Below, piece by piece: positions 44,481 through 51,987 of a stretch of 64,000 nucleotides of DNA. How positions within the stretch are numbered: the first letter of the stretch is position 1; every line of letters begins with the position of its first letter. The translations under genes and the position numbers were made by a program. A model generated the notes under the pieces. That model was not told where the DNA came from. It did not search any database and worked only from the letters and a program-made list of their open reading frames with translations. This DNA comes from a bacterium. Its GTDB lineage: Bacteria; Desulfobacterota; Deferrisomatia; Deferrisomatales; Deferrisomataceae. Location: contig JALUTY010000002.1 in assembly GCA_027021615.1 (NCBI GenBank), positions 1-64,000 on the forward strand. The letters are read 5' to 3'.

Positions 44481-44516
44481 CCTCCCAGCCTCCGAGCTTC
44501 TTAGCCTCCTAGCCTC
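44481..44516. repeat. Tandem AGCCTCCT-type tract, second copy
   Basis: A tandem 8-base tract like that at 10542-10577. On the minus strand it begins at the stop codon of the cytochrome gene (TTTTGAGGCTAGGAGGCT). Confidence 0.7.
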
Positions 44517-46629
44517 AAAAATACCCCTCCCGCATCATGAAGCGGTTGTCCGAGCCGTGGGGCAGGTGGCAAGCCAGGCAGTCGTTTCGCACCTCGCTCA
44601 TCTTCGCCCGGAACCGCGGGGGCACGTGGCTGGGGGCGGTGTCGTGGCACAACGCGCACACCCGGCTGCCCCGGGCCCGCAGGAACCGGTCACCTTGCCG
44701 GCCGTGCCGGTGCTCGAGCTCATGGCAGGCCGTGCAGTTCCCGGCCCCGACCGGGCCGTGGACATAGCGCAGGGGTTTTCCGTCCTCCCCCGCCAGCACC
44801 CCGGCATGGCAGCCCGCACACAGCTCATCGCGGCTACCCTTGAGAAGCTTCTCGGTGTTCGTCCCGTGGGGGTTGTGGCAGCCGGTGCACCGACCCTTCC
44901 GCAGCGCCCCGTGCAGCATGCGCTGCTCCGACACCTTCTCCGGCAGGATGCCGGTGTGGCAGCTCGTGCACAGGATCTTCTCCGGCCGCTTCAGCAGGGG
45001 TCGGAAGTCGCTGATGTGGGGAAGGTGGCAGGTGTAGCAGCTGCCCTTGTCGAACACGCCGTGGATGTTCTTCACGCCCCGTAGCAGGATGCCGTGGCAC
45101 CACCCGCACAGGGTCACCGGCTCCTCCAGCAGGAACTTGTCCCGGACCCCAAGATGCGGGTTGTGGCAGGCGATGCAGTCGATCTGGTAGACCGGCTTGT
45201 GGACCTTGTCGGTCTCGATGATCTCTGAGGTGCCGGTGATCTGGCCGTGGCACCGGGTGCAGTTCTTGCTGCCTTCGTACCGCAGCTCCAGCTTCCCCTT
45301 GCGCACCTCGTGGCAGGCACTGCACCCTCCGTTCTGCAAGGGGTAATGCAGCCTCCCCCGCAGGAGGGCCGGATAGTCGGAGGCGTGGGGGTCGTGGCAG
45401 AACGTGCACTGGCGCACGTCGTCCATGGGCAGCCGGCCGTGGGCCGCCCGAAACCCCTCCTTGCGGAGGTTGTGGCACTGGCCGCAGACCCGATCGGCGG
45501 CCTTCAGCCCCTTGGGGTCGTGGGGGTTGTGACACGTCACACAGCCGTTCTTCAGCGCGGGGTGGCGGTTCTTGCCCTTAGCCGGATCCCCGTGGCAGTC
45601 CACGCATGCCTCCGACACCCCTTGCTTCAGCAGGGCGGGCCGGTCCGACAGGTGGGGTTCGTGGCACAGGCGGCACTCCTCGAGCTCCCCGCCGTGCACC
45701 TCCGCCTTGGCCTCGTCGTGGCACCGGGCGCACAACCCCGGCGTCACGTCCTTGAGGAGCGCGGGGTACGTACCCGCGTGGGGCTGGTGGCAGACGAAGC
45801 AGTTCCCGTCGTCCACCGGCCGGTGGTACGAGCGTGGGTACCGGTCGGGATCGGCCACGTCCTCGTGGCACCGGCGGCACAGGGCCAGGGCGTCGCCCCG
45901 AAGCATCGAGGGATACGCCGAGGCATGGGGGTCGTGGCACGCGCCGCAGGCCGAGTCGCCCGCGGCCCCGTGGAGCGACGGCCTGGCCTGGTCGGCGTGG
46001 CAGGCCGAGCATCCCCCCCGGCCCTTGCGGAGCAGGGCCGGATCGAACGACACGTGGGGGTCGTGGCATCGCAGGCAGTCGGGGGTGATCTCCCGAGTGT
46101 GGCGATTCTTCTTGATCACCGCCCGCAGGGACTCGGTACCCACCTTGTGACATTGGAGGCACAGGTCGGGCACCCGGTCCTTGAGGGTGAGGCTGCCCCG
46201 CGAGAACCCATGGCAGGGGTTGCATGACTCGATGCCTCCGGCGTGGGCCCGGGGCCGGCGGAACCCGTCCTCTGCATCCCCCTCGAACCCGGGGCGGTAC
46301 AGGAGCGGGAGCACGGTGCCCCCGACCACCACGTTGTTCCGACCGGGAGTGAGGTCCAGCGATCCGGAGAACACCTTCCCTTTGAACACGTACAGGTCGA
46401 ACCGGTCCGGCTCGGTCCTCCGGTCCTCGGGCACCACCCGGGCCGTGAGCGCGTCCACCGGATCGCCCAACACGTACCCGAGAACCGGAATGGGTGACTC
46501 CGTGATCAGGGAGCCGGGGGGGGGGAAGACGAACAGGACCTCCGCAGCCCCGGCCCGAAGGGCGGTGGCCAGGAGGAGAGCGGCGGCCGAGGCGACCACG
46601 ATCCACCGGCGCCGTCGAGCCTCGGGCAT
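44515..46629 (-). CDS. Periplasmic/outer-surface 24-haem cytochrome c
   Basis: The protein has 704 residues. A signal peptide (WIVVASAAALLLATALRAGA) is followed by a haem-free N-terminal region of about 120 residues. I count 24 CxxCH haem-binding motifs between about residue 134 and the C-terminus. Many occur as alternating pairs with CHxPH (for example CLRCHDPH, CGACHDPH, CFVCHQPH, CRLCHEPH), the doubled CXXCH pattern. No membrane anchor at the C-terminus. It likely carries electrons across the periplasm or to extracellular acceptors (inference). Transcribed alone from its own promoter at 46699-46728. Confidence 0.92.
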   Translation of the reverse strand: MPEARRRRWIVVASAAALLLATALRAGAAEVLFVFPPPGSLITESPIPVLGYVLGDPVDALTARVVPEDRRTEPDRFDLYVFKGKVFSGSLDLTPGRNNVVVGGTVLPLLYRPGFEGDAEDGFRRPRAHAGGIESCNPCHGFSRGSLTLKDRVPDLCLQCHKVGTESLRAVIKKNRHTREITPDCLRCHDPHVSFDPALLRKGRGGCSACHADQARPSLHGAAGDSACGACHDPHASAYPSMLRGDALALCRRCHEDVADPDRYPRSYHRPVDDGNCFVCHQPHAGTYPALLKDVTPGLCARCHDEAKAEVHGGELEECRLCHEPHLSDRPALLKQGVSEACVDCHGDPAKGKNRHPALKNGCVTCHNPHDPKGLKAADRVCGQCHNLRKEGFRAAHGRLPMDDVRQCTFCHDPHASDYPALLRGRLHYPLQNGGCSACHEVRKGKLELRYEGSKNCTRCHGQITGTSEIIETDKVHKPVYQIDCIACHNPHLGVRDKFLLEEPVTLCGWCHGILLRGVKNIHGVFDKGSCYTCHLPHISDFRPLLKRPEKILCTSCHTGILPEKVSEQRMLHGALRKGRCTGCHNPHGTNTEKLLKGSRDELCAGCHAGVLAGEDGKPLRYVHGPVGAGNCTACHELEHRHGRQGDRFLRARGSRVCALCHDTAPSHVPPRFRAKMSEVRNDCLACHLPHGSDNRFMMREGYF

Positions 46630-46670: not shown

Positions 46671-46698
46671 AGGGCGGCCCCGGAAACGGGGCCGCCCT
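46671..46698. other. Perfect 12-bp hairpin upstream of the cytochrome gene
   Basis: AGGGCGGCCCCG (46671-46682), a four-base loop GAAA, then CGGGGCCGCCCT (46687-46698). It lies directly after the -10 box, so it is either the first part of the cytochrome leader RNA or the terminator of the metalloprotease gene. No T-run follows on the minus strand. Confidence 0.7.
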
Positions 46699-46738: not shown

Positions 46739-48775
46739 TCAAAGCCCCAAAAGCGCCAGAAAGCATCCCCCTCCGCCCCCGCCACCGCCGGAGACGGTCG
46801 GGCCCGGCGGGGGATCGTTCTCCACGAACGAGACCACCCGGGCCGCCGGGGTCGCTGTGGGCGCGGAGGCCTCGGTCACGGAGACCGGAGCGTTCGTCTC
46901 CGGCCCCAGGTTGCCGGTGCCGTCGTACGCGGCCACGGACACCGTGTAATCGCCCACGGGGAGCTCCCGGACGGCCATGGTGGTCACCGGACCGTACAGG
47001 GTTCGGCTGCCCGCACCCCAGGAAGCCACATAGCCGGCCACGTCGGGATCCTGGGGTGCGGCCCAGGCCAGGTCGAACCCGCCGTTCGTCTTGGTGGTGA
47101 TCTCCAGGTTGGAGACCGCCCCAGGGGCAACCGTGTCGCCCGACGGTGAGGACGAAGACACCAGGGTCCACCCCTGGGCACCCAGATCGGAACCCAGGTA
47201 GGCCACCCCCGCCCAAACGGGCGTGTCCGGCTCGTCCACGGCCAAGGGCACCGAGGTTCCCCCCGCCCCGACGCTGCCGAGCAGCAACGGGCTCCCCCCG
47301 GAAGGCAGCTTCACAACCGCCAGGCCCCAGGTCGCTGCGTCCGGAACCCCCGAGAGGGTCAGCGTGACGCCCCCACTCGCACTCCCCCTCGCGTAGACGG
47401 CCCCCAAATAGCCGGGAAGCCCCGCAGACAACGAGCTCTGGGATGCAAGCCCGTCGGCCCACTGCACCGACCCATAGTTCTCCCCCTCCTCGTAGTCCAT
47501 GACCGCAGTGGCCCCCACGAACCCCAGGAACAGGTCCGGCAGCCCTTGAAACCCGTTCGAGGTGGCGAACGCGTCCAATGCCGGCAAGATCCTGAGGCCG
47601 TCCAGGCGGATCCGCTGCCACACGTCGAACAGGGCCGGCCGCCCACCCACGTGCTCGGACAGATACTTGGCGAAGATCACGGACCCGTAGGCCCGGGTCA
47701 CATAGCTCAGGTCGTCGGAGCGCGCGGGCAGGCCGTCCTCTAGGAAATCCGTCCACCCCAACCTGCTCCCGCTCTGTTGGAAATACTGGTAGTAGTCGTT
47801 CACCGTGTCGAACACCTCGTCCTCCATCCAGGTGGAGGAGCACTCGAACCACCAGTCGTCCTCGTTGGGGATCCAGCCCTGAGGCTCGTACAGGAAGTGG
47901 AGCACGTGAAACAGCTCGTGGGCGGCGGTGATCTTCATGGCGCCGTGGATCTTGGCGGAGCCCGAGGCGCCCTCCCCGTTCGGGGGCACGAAGCTCAGGT
48001 CGTTGTTCACCACGATGTAGGGCACCCCGCCGGGCTGGGTGAAGGCGTACGTGCCGGTCCCGATGTTTTCGATCGCGGTGCTGGGGTCGGAGTTCCCGAT
48101 GTACACCGGGATCAGGTTCCCCTCGACCACGGGATGGGTGTACCCCATATCGCCCACCTCGACCCCGTAGGCGGCCTCGAAATAGGCTGCCCAGCGCTCC
48201 ACCACGTCCGGGATGCCGTTGTCCCCGACGACGGGATCGTCCGCGTCCAACGGGCCGTCGTCCGAGGGCGGCGTGGTGCCGTCCTCGTTCGTGAGACCGG
48301 GCCCCCACTCGATGGAAAAGTTGTCGGTGACCAGGCGGTTGGCAAGAACGGCCGTGCCCGTCTTCCCCGTAGCGGTCCGGAACACGGCCCGGCCGGCCGG
48401 GGGCCGGCCGTCGAGCAGATCCACGGCCTCGGCCCGCAGCGCCGGGGGCATCCGGCCGAGCGCCGCCCGCACCCGCCGAAGGATCGGCGTGCCGCACCGG
48501 ACCACCCACGGCTCGGCCGCCGGGACGGACGAAAGGGTCCGAACCCCTCGGCCCGAAGCCGTTTCCATCCGGAGCGCGGCGGGCAGGCGCTCCGGCGCCC
48601 GCACCGCGTACAGCCGGTACAGCTCCGCCTGCCCCTCGTCCAACTCTCCCCAAGCCTCGAGGGCCCGGAGCCGGACCTCGAAACCCGCCACCGGGGCCTG
48701 GGCGCCCCAGGCCGGTGCGCCGAGGGTCAGAGACAGGGCCGCAACGGCCCCCAGCCGCCACCATGGCACGTTCAT
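46739..48775 (-). CDS. Secreted HExxH metalloprotease, MXAN_6640-like
   Basis: The protein has 678 residues. Signal peptide (LGAVAALSLTLGAPAWG), then an N-terminal region (residues about 25-130) that resembles the small protein encoded just upstream. The catalytic zinc motif HELFH is in KITAAHELFHVLHFLYE, with WWFECSSTWMEDEV downstream, as in MXAN_6640-type putative proteases. A fibronectin type III domain (PGAVSNLEITTKTNGGFDLA) precedes the C-terminal tail VSGGGGGGGGCFLALLGL. That tail resembles the Gly-run/Cys of CFI-box or sorting tails but stops after eight residues. Start ATG overlaps the previous stop codon (ATGA). Confidence 0.8.
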   Translation of the reverse strand: MNVPWWRLGAVAALSLTLGAPAWGAQAPVAGFEVRLRALEAWGELDEGQAELYRLYAVRAPERLPAALRMETASGRGVRTLSSVPAAEPWVVRCGTPILRRVRAALGRMPPALRAEAVDLLDGRPPAGRAVFRTATGKTGTAVLANRLVTDNFSIEWGPGLTNEDGTTPPSDDGPLDADDPVVGDNGIPDVVERWAAYFEAAYGVEVGDMGYTHPVVEGNLIPVYIGNSDPSTAIENIGTGTYAFTQPGGVPYIVVNNDLSFVPPNGEGASGSAKIHGAMKITAAHELFHVLHFLYEPQGWIPNEDDWWFECSSTWMEDEVFDTVNDYYQYFQQSGSRLGWTDFLEDGLPARSDDLSYVTRAYGSVIFAKYLSEHVGGRPALFDVWQRIRLDGLRILPALDAFATSNGFQGLPDLFLGFVGATAVMDYEEGENYGSVQWADGLASQSSLSAGLPGYLGAVYARGSASGGVTLTLSGVPDAATWGLAVVKLPSGGSPLLLGSVGAGGTSVPLAVDEPDTPVWAGVAYLGSDLGAQGWTLVSSSSPSGDTVAPGAVSNLEITTKTNGGFDLAWAAPQDPDVAGYVASWGAGSRTLYGPVTTMAVRELPVGDYTVSVAAYDGTGNLGPETNAPVSVTEASAPTATPAARVVSFVENDPPPGPTVSGGGGGGGGCFLALLGL

Positions 48776-49104
48776 CGTTTCTCCTTCGGAAACAGGTAGG
48801 GACGCAGGGCTTCCTGCACGTCGGGCCGAAGCCGGGGAAATCGGCTGCGAGCCTTGCGCAGCACGGGGGTCCCGTCGCGGATGGGGACGTTGCCCCGGAA
48901 CCGTTGGGGAAGCCGCTCGTCCCCCACCACGGCGAACACCCGGTACAGGGTGGCCGTGTCCGGGTCGATCTCCCCCGCGCTCTCGGCCCGGCTGATCAGG
49001 TCCAGCGATGTCGCCTCTGCGCGGGGCTCCGGGGCGCTGCCCATAGCCATCGCGCCCCACGCCCACAGGCCCACCGCTGCCAGCACGAGCCCCAAGATCC
49101 GCAT
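48772..49104 (-). CDS. Small secreted protein similar to the protease N-terminal region
   Basis: The protein has 110 residues with a signal peptide (ILGLVLAAVGLWAWGAMA). Its body aligns by eye with residues about 30-125 of the metalloprotease encoded next: TLYRVFAVVGDERLPQRFRG against ELYRLYAVRAPERLPAALRM, and GTPVLRKARSRFPRLRP against GTPILRRVRAALGRMPP. It looks like a free-standing copy of the protease propeptide-like region, which could act as inhibitor or folding helper (inference). GAGAGGAAG precedes the ATG; its stop overlaps the protease start. Confidence 0.7.
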   Translation of the reverse strand: MRILGLVLAAVGLWAWGAMAMGSAPEPRAEATSLDLISRAESAGEIDPDTATLYRVFAVVGDERLPQRFRGNVPIRDGTPVLRKARSRFPRLRPDVQEALRPYLFPKEKR

Positions 49105-49185
49105 GCTTCCTCTCCCCTTGTCCCCTCATCCTTTTCGGCGGCCAGGCCGATCAGGGTTAGATGCAGCGACCGGCGGAGACGCACC

Positions 49186-51987
49186 GTGGCAAGACTGCTC
49201 GATCAACTATTTAGACGCGAAAGCCGTGCCCGGGCTTACACCCCCACGCCCTTGGCCCAGGAGGCCGTCTTCCGGGAGGAGCGGGCCCGGGCCCACCTGC
49301 GCCGTCGGCTCCTGCGTTTGCGTGACCAGGCGAGCCGCAGGACCCAGGAAGCCCTCCAGTTGCTTCCCCTGCTCCTCCACCTCAACCGACCCGGGTTGCC
49401 GGGATACCTCGACGATCCAGCCTGTCCCGTGGGCATCGCCGACTACGCGCCCTCCAACGAGGCCATCCGGCTGGCCCACCGGCTGCTCCCCGAAGCCCGG
49501 ATCAAGCGTTCCGCGTTCTACCGGCCCGCGGTGGACCTGGTGGCCGTGATGGGAAGCGCCGGATCGATCGGGTTCACGGGCGAGTCGGACCTGGACGTGT
49601 GGGTCTGCCACAGCCCGCATCTCTCCGACGCTGCGGTGGACGCCTACGGCGCCAAGGTCCGGGCCGCGGAGCAGTGGCTGAACCGCCACGCCGACGTGGA
49701 GTTCCACCTCTTCCTCCAGTCCACGGCCGACATCCGGGTGAACGACTTCGGCCAGACCGACCTGGAGGGCTGCGGCTCCGCCATGGGCGCCCTTCTCAAG
49801 GAGGAGTTCTACCGCACCCACATCCTGCTGGGCGGGAAGCTCCCCGTGTGGTGGGTGCTCCCCCACGGCGTCCCACCCCCCGCCTATGCGGAGCACCTGG
49901 AGCGGCTTCTGGCGGACCCCACCCTGGTCACCGACAGCTATGTGGACCTGGGCCCCGTGGCCACGGTACCCGTGGGGGAGCTGTTCGGCGCCGCGGTGTG
50001 GCAGATCGCAAAGGGGGAGAAGGCCCCCTTCAAGTCGGCCCTCAAGCTGGGCCTCCTGGAGAAGACCCTGTGCTCCGACGAGCCCCCACCACCCCTGTGT
50101 GAGGAGGTGAAGCGCCGGGTCCACGCCGGGGAGACCCCCGATCCCTACTGCGTGCTGTTCGATGCCGTGGTGGAACACTACCGCAGCCGCGGGGATCCCG
50201 CCACCGAGGACCTGCTGGCCCGCTGCTTCTATCTGAAGACAGGGGTCCATGTGGACCCCGATCGGATCGAGGCATGCCTCGAGGACCCCAGCGACCTGGG
50301 GGTGATGACCCGGTACACCCGGGAGTGGGGGTGGGGCCCCCGCCGGCTCCGGCATCTGAACGACTTCCGGAGCTGGAAGTTCGAGCGGGTGCGCGAGCTC
50401 GCCGAGGAGCTCGACCGGTACTTCCTGCGCACGTACCAGCGTATCCGATCCCGGCTGGACCACGCCGGAGAGACCCAACGGATTACGGCCCGGGACCTGA
50501 CCGTGCTGGGCAGGAAGCTTCAGATCCGCTACCGCAAGGCCCCCCACAAGGTCGAGACCCTCCGGTTCGTCACGCCCGGGGTGGGAGAGCCCCACCTGAC
50601 CTTGTACCGGGAGACCCTGCCCGGCGGCGAGGCTCCTTGGCGCCTGTACCGGGGGCACGTGAGCCCATCGAACGTGGACCAGAAGGCCAATGCCCTGCTC
50701 CGGGAGGCCGAGGATCCCCTCGAGCCGTTGGTGTGGGCCGCCCACAACGGAATCCTCGGCCCCCGCAGCCAGCTCGGGTGCTGGGACACCGAGCGCCGGG
50801 TCTCCGGCGCCGACCTCGAGCCGATCGCCCGGCTCCTCTCCCGGATGCTCGGCCGGGGCCGGGGCCGCAGCCCCGACGCCCCTACCCTCCTGCGCCCGCC
50901 GCGCACGGAGCATCTGGCCGTGCTCGGGCAGCCGGGGCGGGGGCGAGGGTTTGCCGTGGTGTGGGCCACGAGCTGGGGAGAGGTGTTCTATCGGTCGTGG
51001 ACCGGGCCCGGAGCCTACGCTCGGCTGGTGGAGGAGGCCCTTCTGTCGTTTCTGACCCAGCCCCCTCCCCCAGGTCGGCTGTGGGTGCACGCCCCCTCCC
51101 CCAAACTGGGCAGTCATCGCATCGCCCTGCCCCTGGACCGACGGTTGCCCGAGATCGTCGAGTGGATCGGCCCCGCCCTGCCCAAGGGAGCCCGGCGCCG
51201 GTACGTGTGCGGGGTGGAGGGGGGGATCTCGGTGCTCGACCAAACCGCCCCGGACCGGTGCACCCACCGGATGGCGTTCGACCGGGAGGACCTCCTCCGG
51301 CTTCTCGGAGCGGTAGGGCCTTACACACGGGTAGAGACCCGGGTGGAGCGTCAGGCCGGGGACCTGGCTCTGCTGGCCACCTTGGTGGAGGAGGCCCAGC
51401 CCGGGCTCCTGGACCTGTTCGTCCTCCGGGACGGGCACCGCGACTGGGTGTTCATGGTGGACGAGGTGGGCAACCTGAGCCACTGGAGCGGCCCGGCGGA
51501 TCCCCAGCCCTACGTGTTGGCCCGCCTCCTCCACTTCCTGGAGAACGTGTTCCCGGACGTGGCGGCCCAGCCCCGCAGCGTGGTGGCCGGAAAGGATCTG
51601 CTGGACGTGCTGCGCATCCACACCGTCCTGTTCGAGGGCACCTGCCGGGCCTTCACCGCCACCCAGGATCATCTGAGCCGAGTACGAGGTCTGGGGCTTC
51701 AACCGGTGGGCCTCGTGATCGAGCGGATCCCGTCCCCGACCGACGAGCCTCCCGCCTACCGCATCACCTGGGGGATGCAGGTGATCGACAGCGCCCGCTG
51801 TGCCGACCCCTTGGCCGAGGTGCGACGACGGATCCTCGAAGCCCGCAGCTCAGGGCTCGAGTACGAGGTGTTCATCACCCGCCTTTTTCTGGACGAGGCG
51901 TTCCGGAGGGAGCACTGCGGTGAGGTCGCGGCCACGGGCCACTACCTGTTCTACAAGAAGGCGATCGAACAGCGGCTCGCGGGTTGA
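49186..51987 (+). CDS. cyaA: Class I adenylate cyclase
   Basis: The protein has 933 residues. The nucleotidyltransferase signature MGSAGSIGFTGESDLDVWVC begins at about residue 122 and carries the GSx(3-4)S and DxDxW residues of the enterobacterial-type cyclase. Flanking blocks (LPLLLHLNRPGLPGY near residue 65, PVWWVLPHGVPPP near 225) fit the N-terminal catalytic half. The long C-terminal half is regulatory in this family. GTG start at 49186 with GGAG eight bases upstream; the longer upstream frame overlaps the divergent gene and is rejected. It makes cAMP; no CRP-like gene is in the window. Confidence 0.92.
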   Translation: MARLLDQLFRRESRARAYTPTPLAQEAVFREERARAHLRRRLLRLRDQASRRTQEALQLLPLLLHLNRPGLPGYLDDPACPVGIADYAPSNEAIRLAHRLLPEARIKRSAFYRPAVDLVAVMGSAGSIGFTGESDLDVWVCHSPHLSDAAVDAYGAKVRAAEQWLNRHADVEFHLFLQSTADIRVNDFGQTDLEGCGSAMGALLKEEFYRTHILLGGKLPVWWVLPHGVPPPAYAEHLERLLADPTLVTDSYVDLGPVATVPVGELFGAAVWQIAKGEKAPFKSALKLGLLEKTLCSDEPPPPLCEEVKRRVHAGETPDPYCVLFDAVVEHYRSRGDPATEDLLARCFYLKTGVHVDPDRIEACLEDPSDLGVMTRYTREWGWGPRRLRHLNDFRSWKFERVRELAEELDRYFLRTYQRIRSRLDHAGETQRITARDLTVLGRKLQIRYRKAPHKVETLRFVTPGVGEPHLTLYRETLPGGEAPWRLYRGHVSPSNVDQKANALLREAEDPLEPLVWAAHNGILGPRSQLGCWDTERRVSGADLEPIARLLSRMLGRGRGRSPDAPTLLRPPRTEHLAVLGQPGRGRGFAVVWATSWGEVFYRSWTGPGAYARLVEEALLSFLTQPPPPGRLWVHAPSPKLGSHRIALPLDRRLPEIVEWIGPALPKGARRRYVCGVEGGISVLDQTAPDRCTHRMAFDREDLLRLLGAVGPYTRVETRVERQAGDLALLATLVEEAQPGLLDLFVLRDGHRDWVFMVDEVGNLSHWSGPADPQPYVLARLLHFLENVFPDVAAQPRSVVAGKDLLDVLRIHTVLFEGTCRAFTATQDHLSRVRGLGLQPVGLVIERIPSPTDEPPAYRITWGMQVIDSARCADPLAEVRRRILEARSSGLEYEVFITRLFLDEAFRREHCGEVAATGHYLFYKKAIEQRLAG

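Follow-up and report, generated by a model that had tools for sequence, protein, structure and literature searches.

What is the role of a small secreted protein that resembles the N-terminal region of the secreted protease encoded directly behind it? Two genes in the window, the 64,000-nucleotide stretch of bacterial DNA analysed here, raise this question. A first-pass annotation had aligned the two products by eye and suggested that they could form a self-contained protease/inhibitor module. In the following, we describe the pair (Table 1), its distribution and the selection acting on it, and discuss how it may work.

Table 1. Features of the gene pair in the window (residue numbers refer to the respective protein).
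Feature	Positions	Strand	Basis or remark
Small secreted protein, 110 aa, free copy of the protease N-terminal domain	48772..49104	-	Homology; kept in 7 genomes
Small-protein signal peptide, residues ~1-20, A-x-A site	49045..49104	-	Read by eye
Free domain, residues ~32-106, four predicted helices	48787..49011	-	Model pLDDT 67, low confidence
Asp77 of the free copy, aligned with in-chain Cys94	48874..48876	-	Asp in 7/7 free copies of the order
Stop/start overlap (ATGA) between the small and the protease gene	48772..48775	-	ATGA or GTGA in 6/6 readable pairs
Secreted HExxH metalloprotease, MXAN_6640-like, 678 aa	46739..48775	-	
Protease signal peptide, residues ~1-24	48704..48775	-	Read by eye
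Copy of the domain within the protease chain (in-chain, cis), residues ~31-124	48404..48685	-	
Cys94 in RCGTPILR, candidate cysteine-switch residue	48494..48496	-	Cys conserved in in-chain copies
Protease catalytic region, residues ~150-470	47366..48328	-	
HELFH zinc-binding motif, residues 286-290	47906..47920	-	HExxH invariant
Invariant Glu311 of the WWFE motif, probable third ligand of the zinc	47843..47845	-	Inferred from gluzincin-like spacing
Fibronectin type III-like domain, residues 553-627	46895..47119	-	
C-terminal SGGGGGGGGCFLALLGL tail	46742..46792	-	Invariant Cys-Phe; like a shortened CFI-box C-terminus

The resemblance that had been seen by eye is one of homology. In BLASTP, the small protein matches residues 22-111 of the protease with an E-value of 1e-8, and the local alignment of the two proteins, with signal peptides removed, scores 96, whereas the best of 2000 shuffles reached 57-58. 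A comparison of profiles built from seven free and eight in-chain copies, the check proposed with the initial alignment, gave a probability of 98.6% and a pairwise E-value of 8.5e-16. Relative to the free copy, the in-chain copy carries an insertion of 18 residues. In both profile comparisons and the domain tree, the free copies are closer to the fused N-terminal domains of DUF6055-type proteases than their partner's in-chain copy is, and the free copy therefore need not mimic the domain of its partner in detail. Searches with the small protein in Pfam, NCBIfam and PHROGs returned no match. PDB profile and fold searches for the two proteins yielded only fn3 or chance matches, with no credible relative of the small domain by profile or by the low-confidence four-helix model. 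In these searches, the small protein showed neither the sequence nor the fold of a subtilisin or cathepsin propeptide (MEROPS I9 and I29).

In the protease, the signal peptide is followed by the N-terminal domain, a poorly conserved linker and the catalytic region, in which HExxH and the downstream glutamate of WWFE (W-x-E) are invariant in nine homologs. The placement of the N-terminal domain is that of a propeptide, which would presumably be cleaved off. The first-pass label 'MXAN_6640-type' stands as far as the homologous catalytic HExxH region is concerned; with 115.7 bits (E-value 3.1e-33) on the MXAN_6640 family model NF045524, the protease stays below the curated cut-off of 140 and is a divergent member. 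Unlike it, canonical members retain just the CGTP part of the N-terminal region, and they adjoin another secreted, CarboxypepD_reg-like partner instead of a copy of the domain. At four of five canonical loci, this distinct partner of about 165-185 residues overlaps the protease start by 1-4 bases (L074:1835-2347; L075:3159-3662, minus strand; L076:2108-2599; L077:1995-2555; CarboxypepD_reg-like where tested), and co-translated partners seem to be common in the family. The poly-Gly-CF tail of the window protease (46742-46792) is invariant among the proteases of the order and resembles a shortened form of the full CFI-box-CTERM (NF041770) found in the canonical member L074. The genome of the window (G000) also encodes a short paralog of 468 residues (G000:C21:51533-52321; L060:2171-3577), which lacks the helical domain and has an RCATG motif directly after its signal peptide. 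A single-sequence structure model of the protease was unusable (pLDDT 38), and searches for the protease in viral contigs and plasmids found nothing useful.

The pair is not confined to the window. The search in other genomes that the first-pass annotation had called for recovered the small protein in G001, G002, G003, G004, G005 and G007, and in all seven genomes its gene lies directly upstream of the long protease. Together, they span five genera from three families of the order, and the gene arrangement stays the same: first a divergently oriented gene for a class-I adenylate cyclase-like protein, then the small gene, the protease gene and a multiheme cytochrome c gene. In the window, bases 48772-48775 are common to both reading frames, as first noted, and the overlap is ATGA or GTGA in the six pairs with a readable junction. 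Such a four-base overlap in every readable pair implies that the two proteins are co-translated, probably from the same message. Of the neighbours, the adenylate cyclase-like protein, encoded at 49183-51987 divergently from the small gene, is conserved in the order, and the cytochrome (Paired_CXXCH; 44515-46629) follows the protease in 6/6 genomes of the order with a readable neighbourhood. The gap between protease and cytochrome holds a perfect 11-bp inverted repeat at 46672-46697, GGGCGGCCCCG-TTTC-CGGGGCCGCCC, which is followed by only two T and, judged by eye, is a possible terminator.

To trace the domain further, we searched 395 genomes of one phylum with a profile of all domain copies (A4) and found it in 16. 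Throughout these 395 genomes, every long reading frame with the domain has HExxH (one is truncated at a contig end), and every free copy lies directly upstream of an HExxH protease. The domain thus occurs solely N-terminally in such proteases or directly beside them, which rules out a common, unrelated secretion domain, the outcome that had been named as speaking against the module. Five further genomes beyond the order encode it in fusion with proteases (G213, G254, G348, G415 and G486, of which G415 and G486 came from order-level searches), and several of these proteases match Pfam DUF6055. Two weak small-protein matches, G001:C275 and G129:C31, were not recovered by A4 at an E-value of 0.001.

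A second pair was found in G323 (family f56), where 14 bases separate the gene of a secreted 153-residue protein from that of the HEYFH protease downstream of it, which scores 78.7 bits on NF045524. The free protein shares 45% identity with the N-terminal region of its own protease (E-value 3e-25). A tree of the domain separates the order's seven free copies from the in-chain copies by a single branch (94/95) and groups the free and in-chain copies of G323 together (100/100); it is based on 89 columns and has long branches, so that deeper groupings are uncertain. A single origin of all free copies including that of G323 was rejected (AU test, p 0.00012). Given this rejection and the grouping in G323, the sequences indicate that the combination of a protease with a free copy of its N-terminal domain evolved at least twice.

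Of the two copies in the order, the free one evolves more slowly. Between G000 and G002, dN/dS is 0.16 for the free domain (residues 32-110) and 0.18 for the catalytic region, but 0.44 for the in-chain copy. The free domains are 95% identical and the in-chain copies 83%, with amino-acid changes at 4/79 and 21/126 positions, respectively (Fisher p 0.015). The free domain is likewise the better conserved in 11/11 species pairs, which are not independent of one another. With its low dN/dS (0.11-0.23 within the genus) and a conservation above that of the in-chain copy, the free copy bears the marks of a functional gene and not of debris.

The two copies also differ at one conspicuous position. Among the order's in-chain copies, 11/13 have a cysteine in a C-x-T motif (residue 94 of the window protease, in RCGTPILR). 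So do the G323 protease and five MXAN_6640 enzymes of canonical type (HCGTPLKH or a similar motif), and in nearly all short paralogs it stands just after the signal peptide. The free copies never have it: in the order, 7/7 carry aspartate at this position, and the one in G323 carries glycine preceded by aspartate. The association of the cysteine with in-chain copies gives Fisher p-values of 0.0005 by sequence and 0.005 by genus, which are rough since the rows are related. This distribution is new here, and it makes C-x-T a candidate latency motif for an entire uncharacterised protease family. A second conserved cysteine, sought in the catalytic domain across the in-chain proteases, was not found; a disulfide was rejected as the role of the conserved residue, as the only other conserved cysteine is that of the C-terminal CF and each of the two occurs without the other.

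The motif is reminiscent of the cysteine switch known from mirolysin and the matrix metalloproteinases (MMPs). These, together with karilysin and astacins, are cysteine- or aspartate-switch zymogens that also have a conserved Cys-Gly in the pro-segment, and in which cysteine and aspartate are exchanged between relatives (PMC6949598). They are metzincins in which blocking of the zinc has been shown structurally, whereas for the window protease it is suspected. Two observations speak against such a switch: DUF6055-type enzymes have fused N-terminal domains without the cysteine, and the low-confidence model places the Cys/Asp position just before a helix. We therefore treat a zinc switch as a lead only. 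A bolder reading, which we offer tentatively and consider doubtful, is that MXAN_6640-type proteases are non-metzincin cysteine-switch zymogens and that the free copy, with aspartate in place of cysteine, acts as a dedicated inhibitor in trans, making the pair a split and duplicated latency device with at least two origins. In any case, a free copy that lacks the conserved cysteine cannot use the same putative cysteine switch.

How, then, may the pair work? The reading that we favour, with some reservation, is that the free copy is a propeptide-like partner of the protease in trans. A secreted zinc metalloprotease carries a helical, prodomain-like domain at its N-terminus, and a second secreted protein, translated just ahead of it, consists of this domain alone. 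The free copy would bind its partner protease where the prodomain binds in cis; during export, this would maintain the latency of the enzyme or shield the cell. Possibly, the free copy also aids folding of the protease. The suggested module is upheld in a propeptide-like form: the pair is conserved, carries a co-translation signal, is associated with proteases only and has recurred independently, while inhibition itself keeps the status of a proposal. Against a trans partner we count, besides the missing cysteine and the closeness of the free copy to DUF6055-type domains, the relatives in family f4 of the order, which have the long protease and no free copy, one G005 protease without a free partner (G005x), and G004, where two long proteases in tandem (the second at L022:8380-10542) share one free copy.

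Alternatively, the free copy could be a foldase in trans instead of an inhibitor, substituting for an in-chain domain that has drifted. The faster evolution of the in-chain copy with its insertion, next to a conserved free copy, would fit this idea, as would the gene order, with the end of the free gene overlapping the protease start, and the lack of the switch-like cysteine in free copies. Yet the short paralogs in the same genomes (468-533 residues) have lost the entire helical domain and retain an intact HExxH region, so that folding in this family does not always depend on the domain, and some relatives have no free copy. The sequences fit an inhibitor as well as a folding helper; we favour inhibition, since the systems known to share this layout are inhibitors, and consider a pure foldase unlikely. 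Less probable still is a docking or targeting module for a third component, such as a surface structure or the multiheme cytochrome, with the free copy competing for or organising the site. The cytochrome gene does adjoin the pair in six genomes, and the C-terminal tails suggest surface attachment, but in other families the domain is found with HExxH proteases only, and no multiheme cytochrome is among the nearby reading frames listed for G323. It is the protease that accompanies the domain throughout. Finally, the position of the free copies beside DUF6055-type N-terminal domains in tree and profile, as if they came from another protease, might suggest a functionless remnant left behind when a protease gene split or decayed. 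Its own signal peptide, the purifying selection within the genus, an overlap and synteny kept across three families, and the separate recurrence in G323 make this extremely improbable, and we reject it.

Returning to the trans partner, free propeptide-like inhibitors are already known for serine and cysteine proteases; our literature search found none for this group of metalloproteases, and no paper on MXAN_6640. A compact, co-translated and recurrent pair of protease and prodomain offers a clean system in which to ask why a prodomain is duplicated and supplied in trans. Among the closest known designs is that of SpeB and Spi of Streptococcus pyogenes, a C10 cysteine protease and its specific, propeptide-analogous inhibitor (PMC2873492). 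Both cases involve a bacterial secreted protease and an adjacent small gene resembling its propeptide, co-transcribed in the case of SpeB-Spi, and in the window, too, the free protein is homologous to the N-terminal domain of the adjacent protease. In contrast to SpeB, the window protease is a zinc metalloprotease, the helical domain is unrelated, both proteins have signal peptides, and inhibition is inferred. Stand-alone mimics of I9 propeptides, namely POIA1, the yeast peptidase B inhibitor, TgMIC5 and Plasmodium SUB1-ProM, are likewise free proteins that match a prodomain in fold or sequence, and the SUB1-ProM gene adjoins protease genes (PMC6993865). Unlike the bacterial metalloprotease pair, they are eukaryotic and proven inhibitors of serine proteases, and the three classical ones lack significant sequence similarity to propeptides, whereas that within the window pair is clear. 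The I29 propeptide-like inhibitors CTLA-2, crammer and BCPI (PMC4089206) are also free copies of protease propeptides, but they contain a different domain and act on animal cysteine cathepsins. By analogy, the window pair is best read as a metalloprotease counterpart of SpeB-Spi and the stand-alone I9 and I29 inhibitors.
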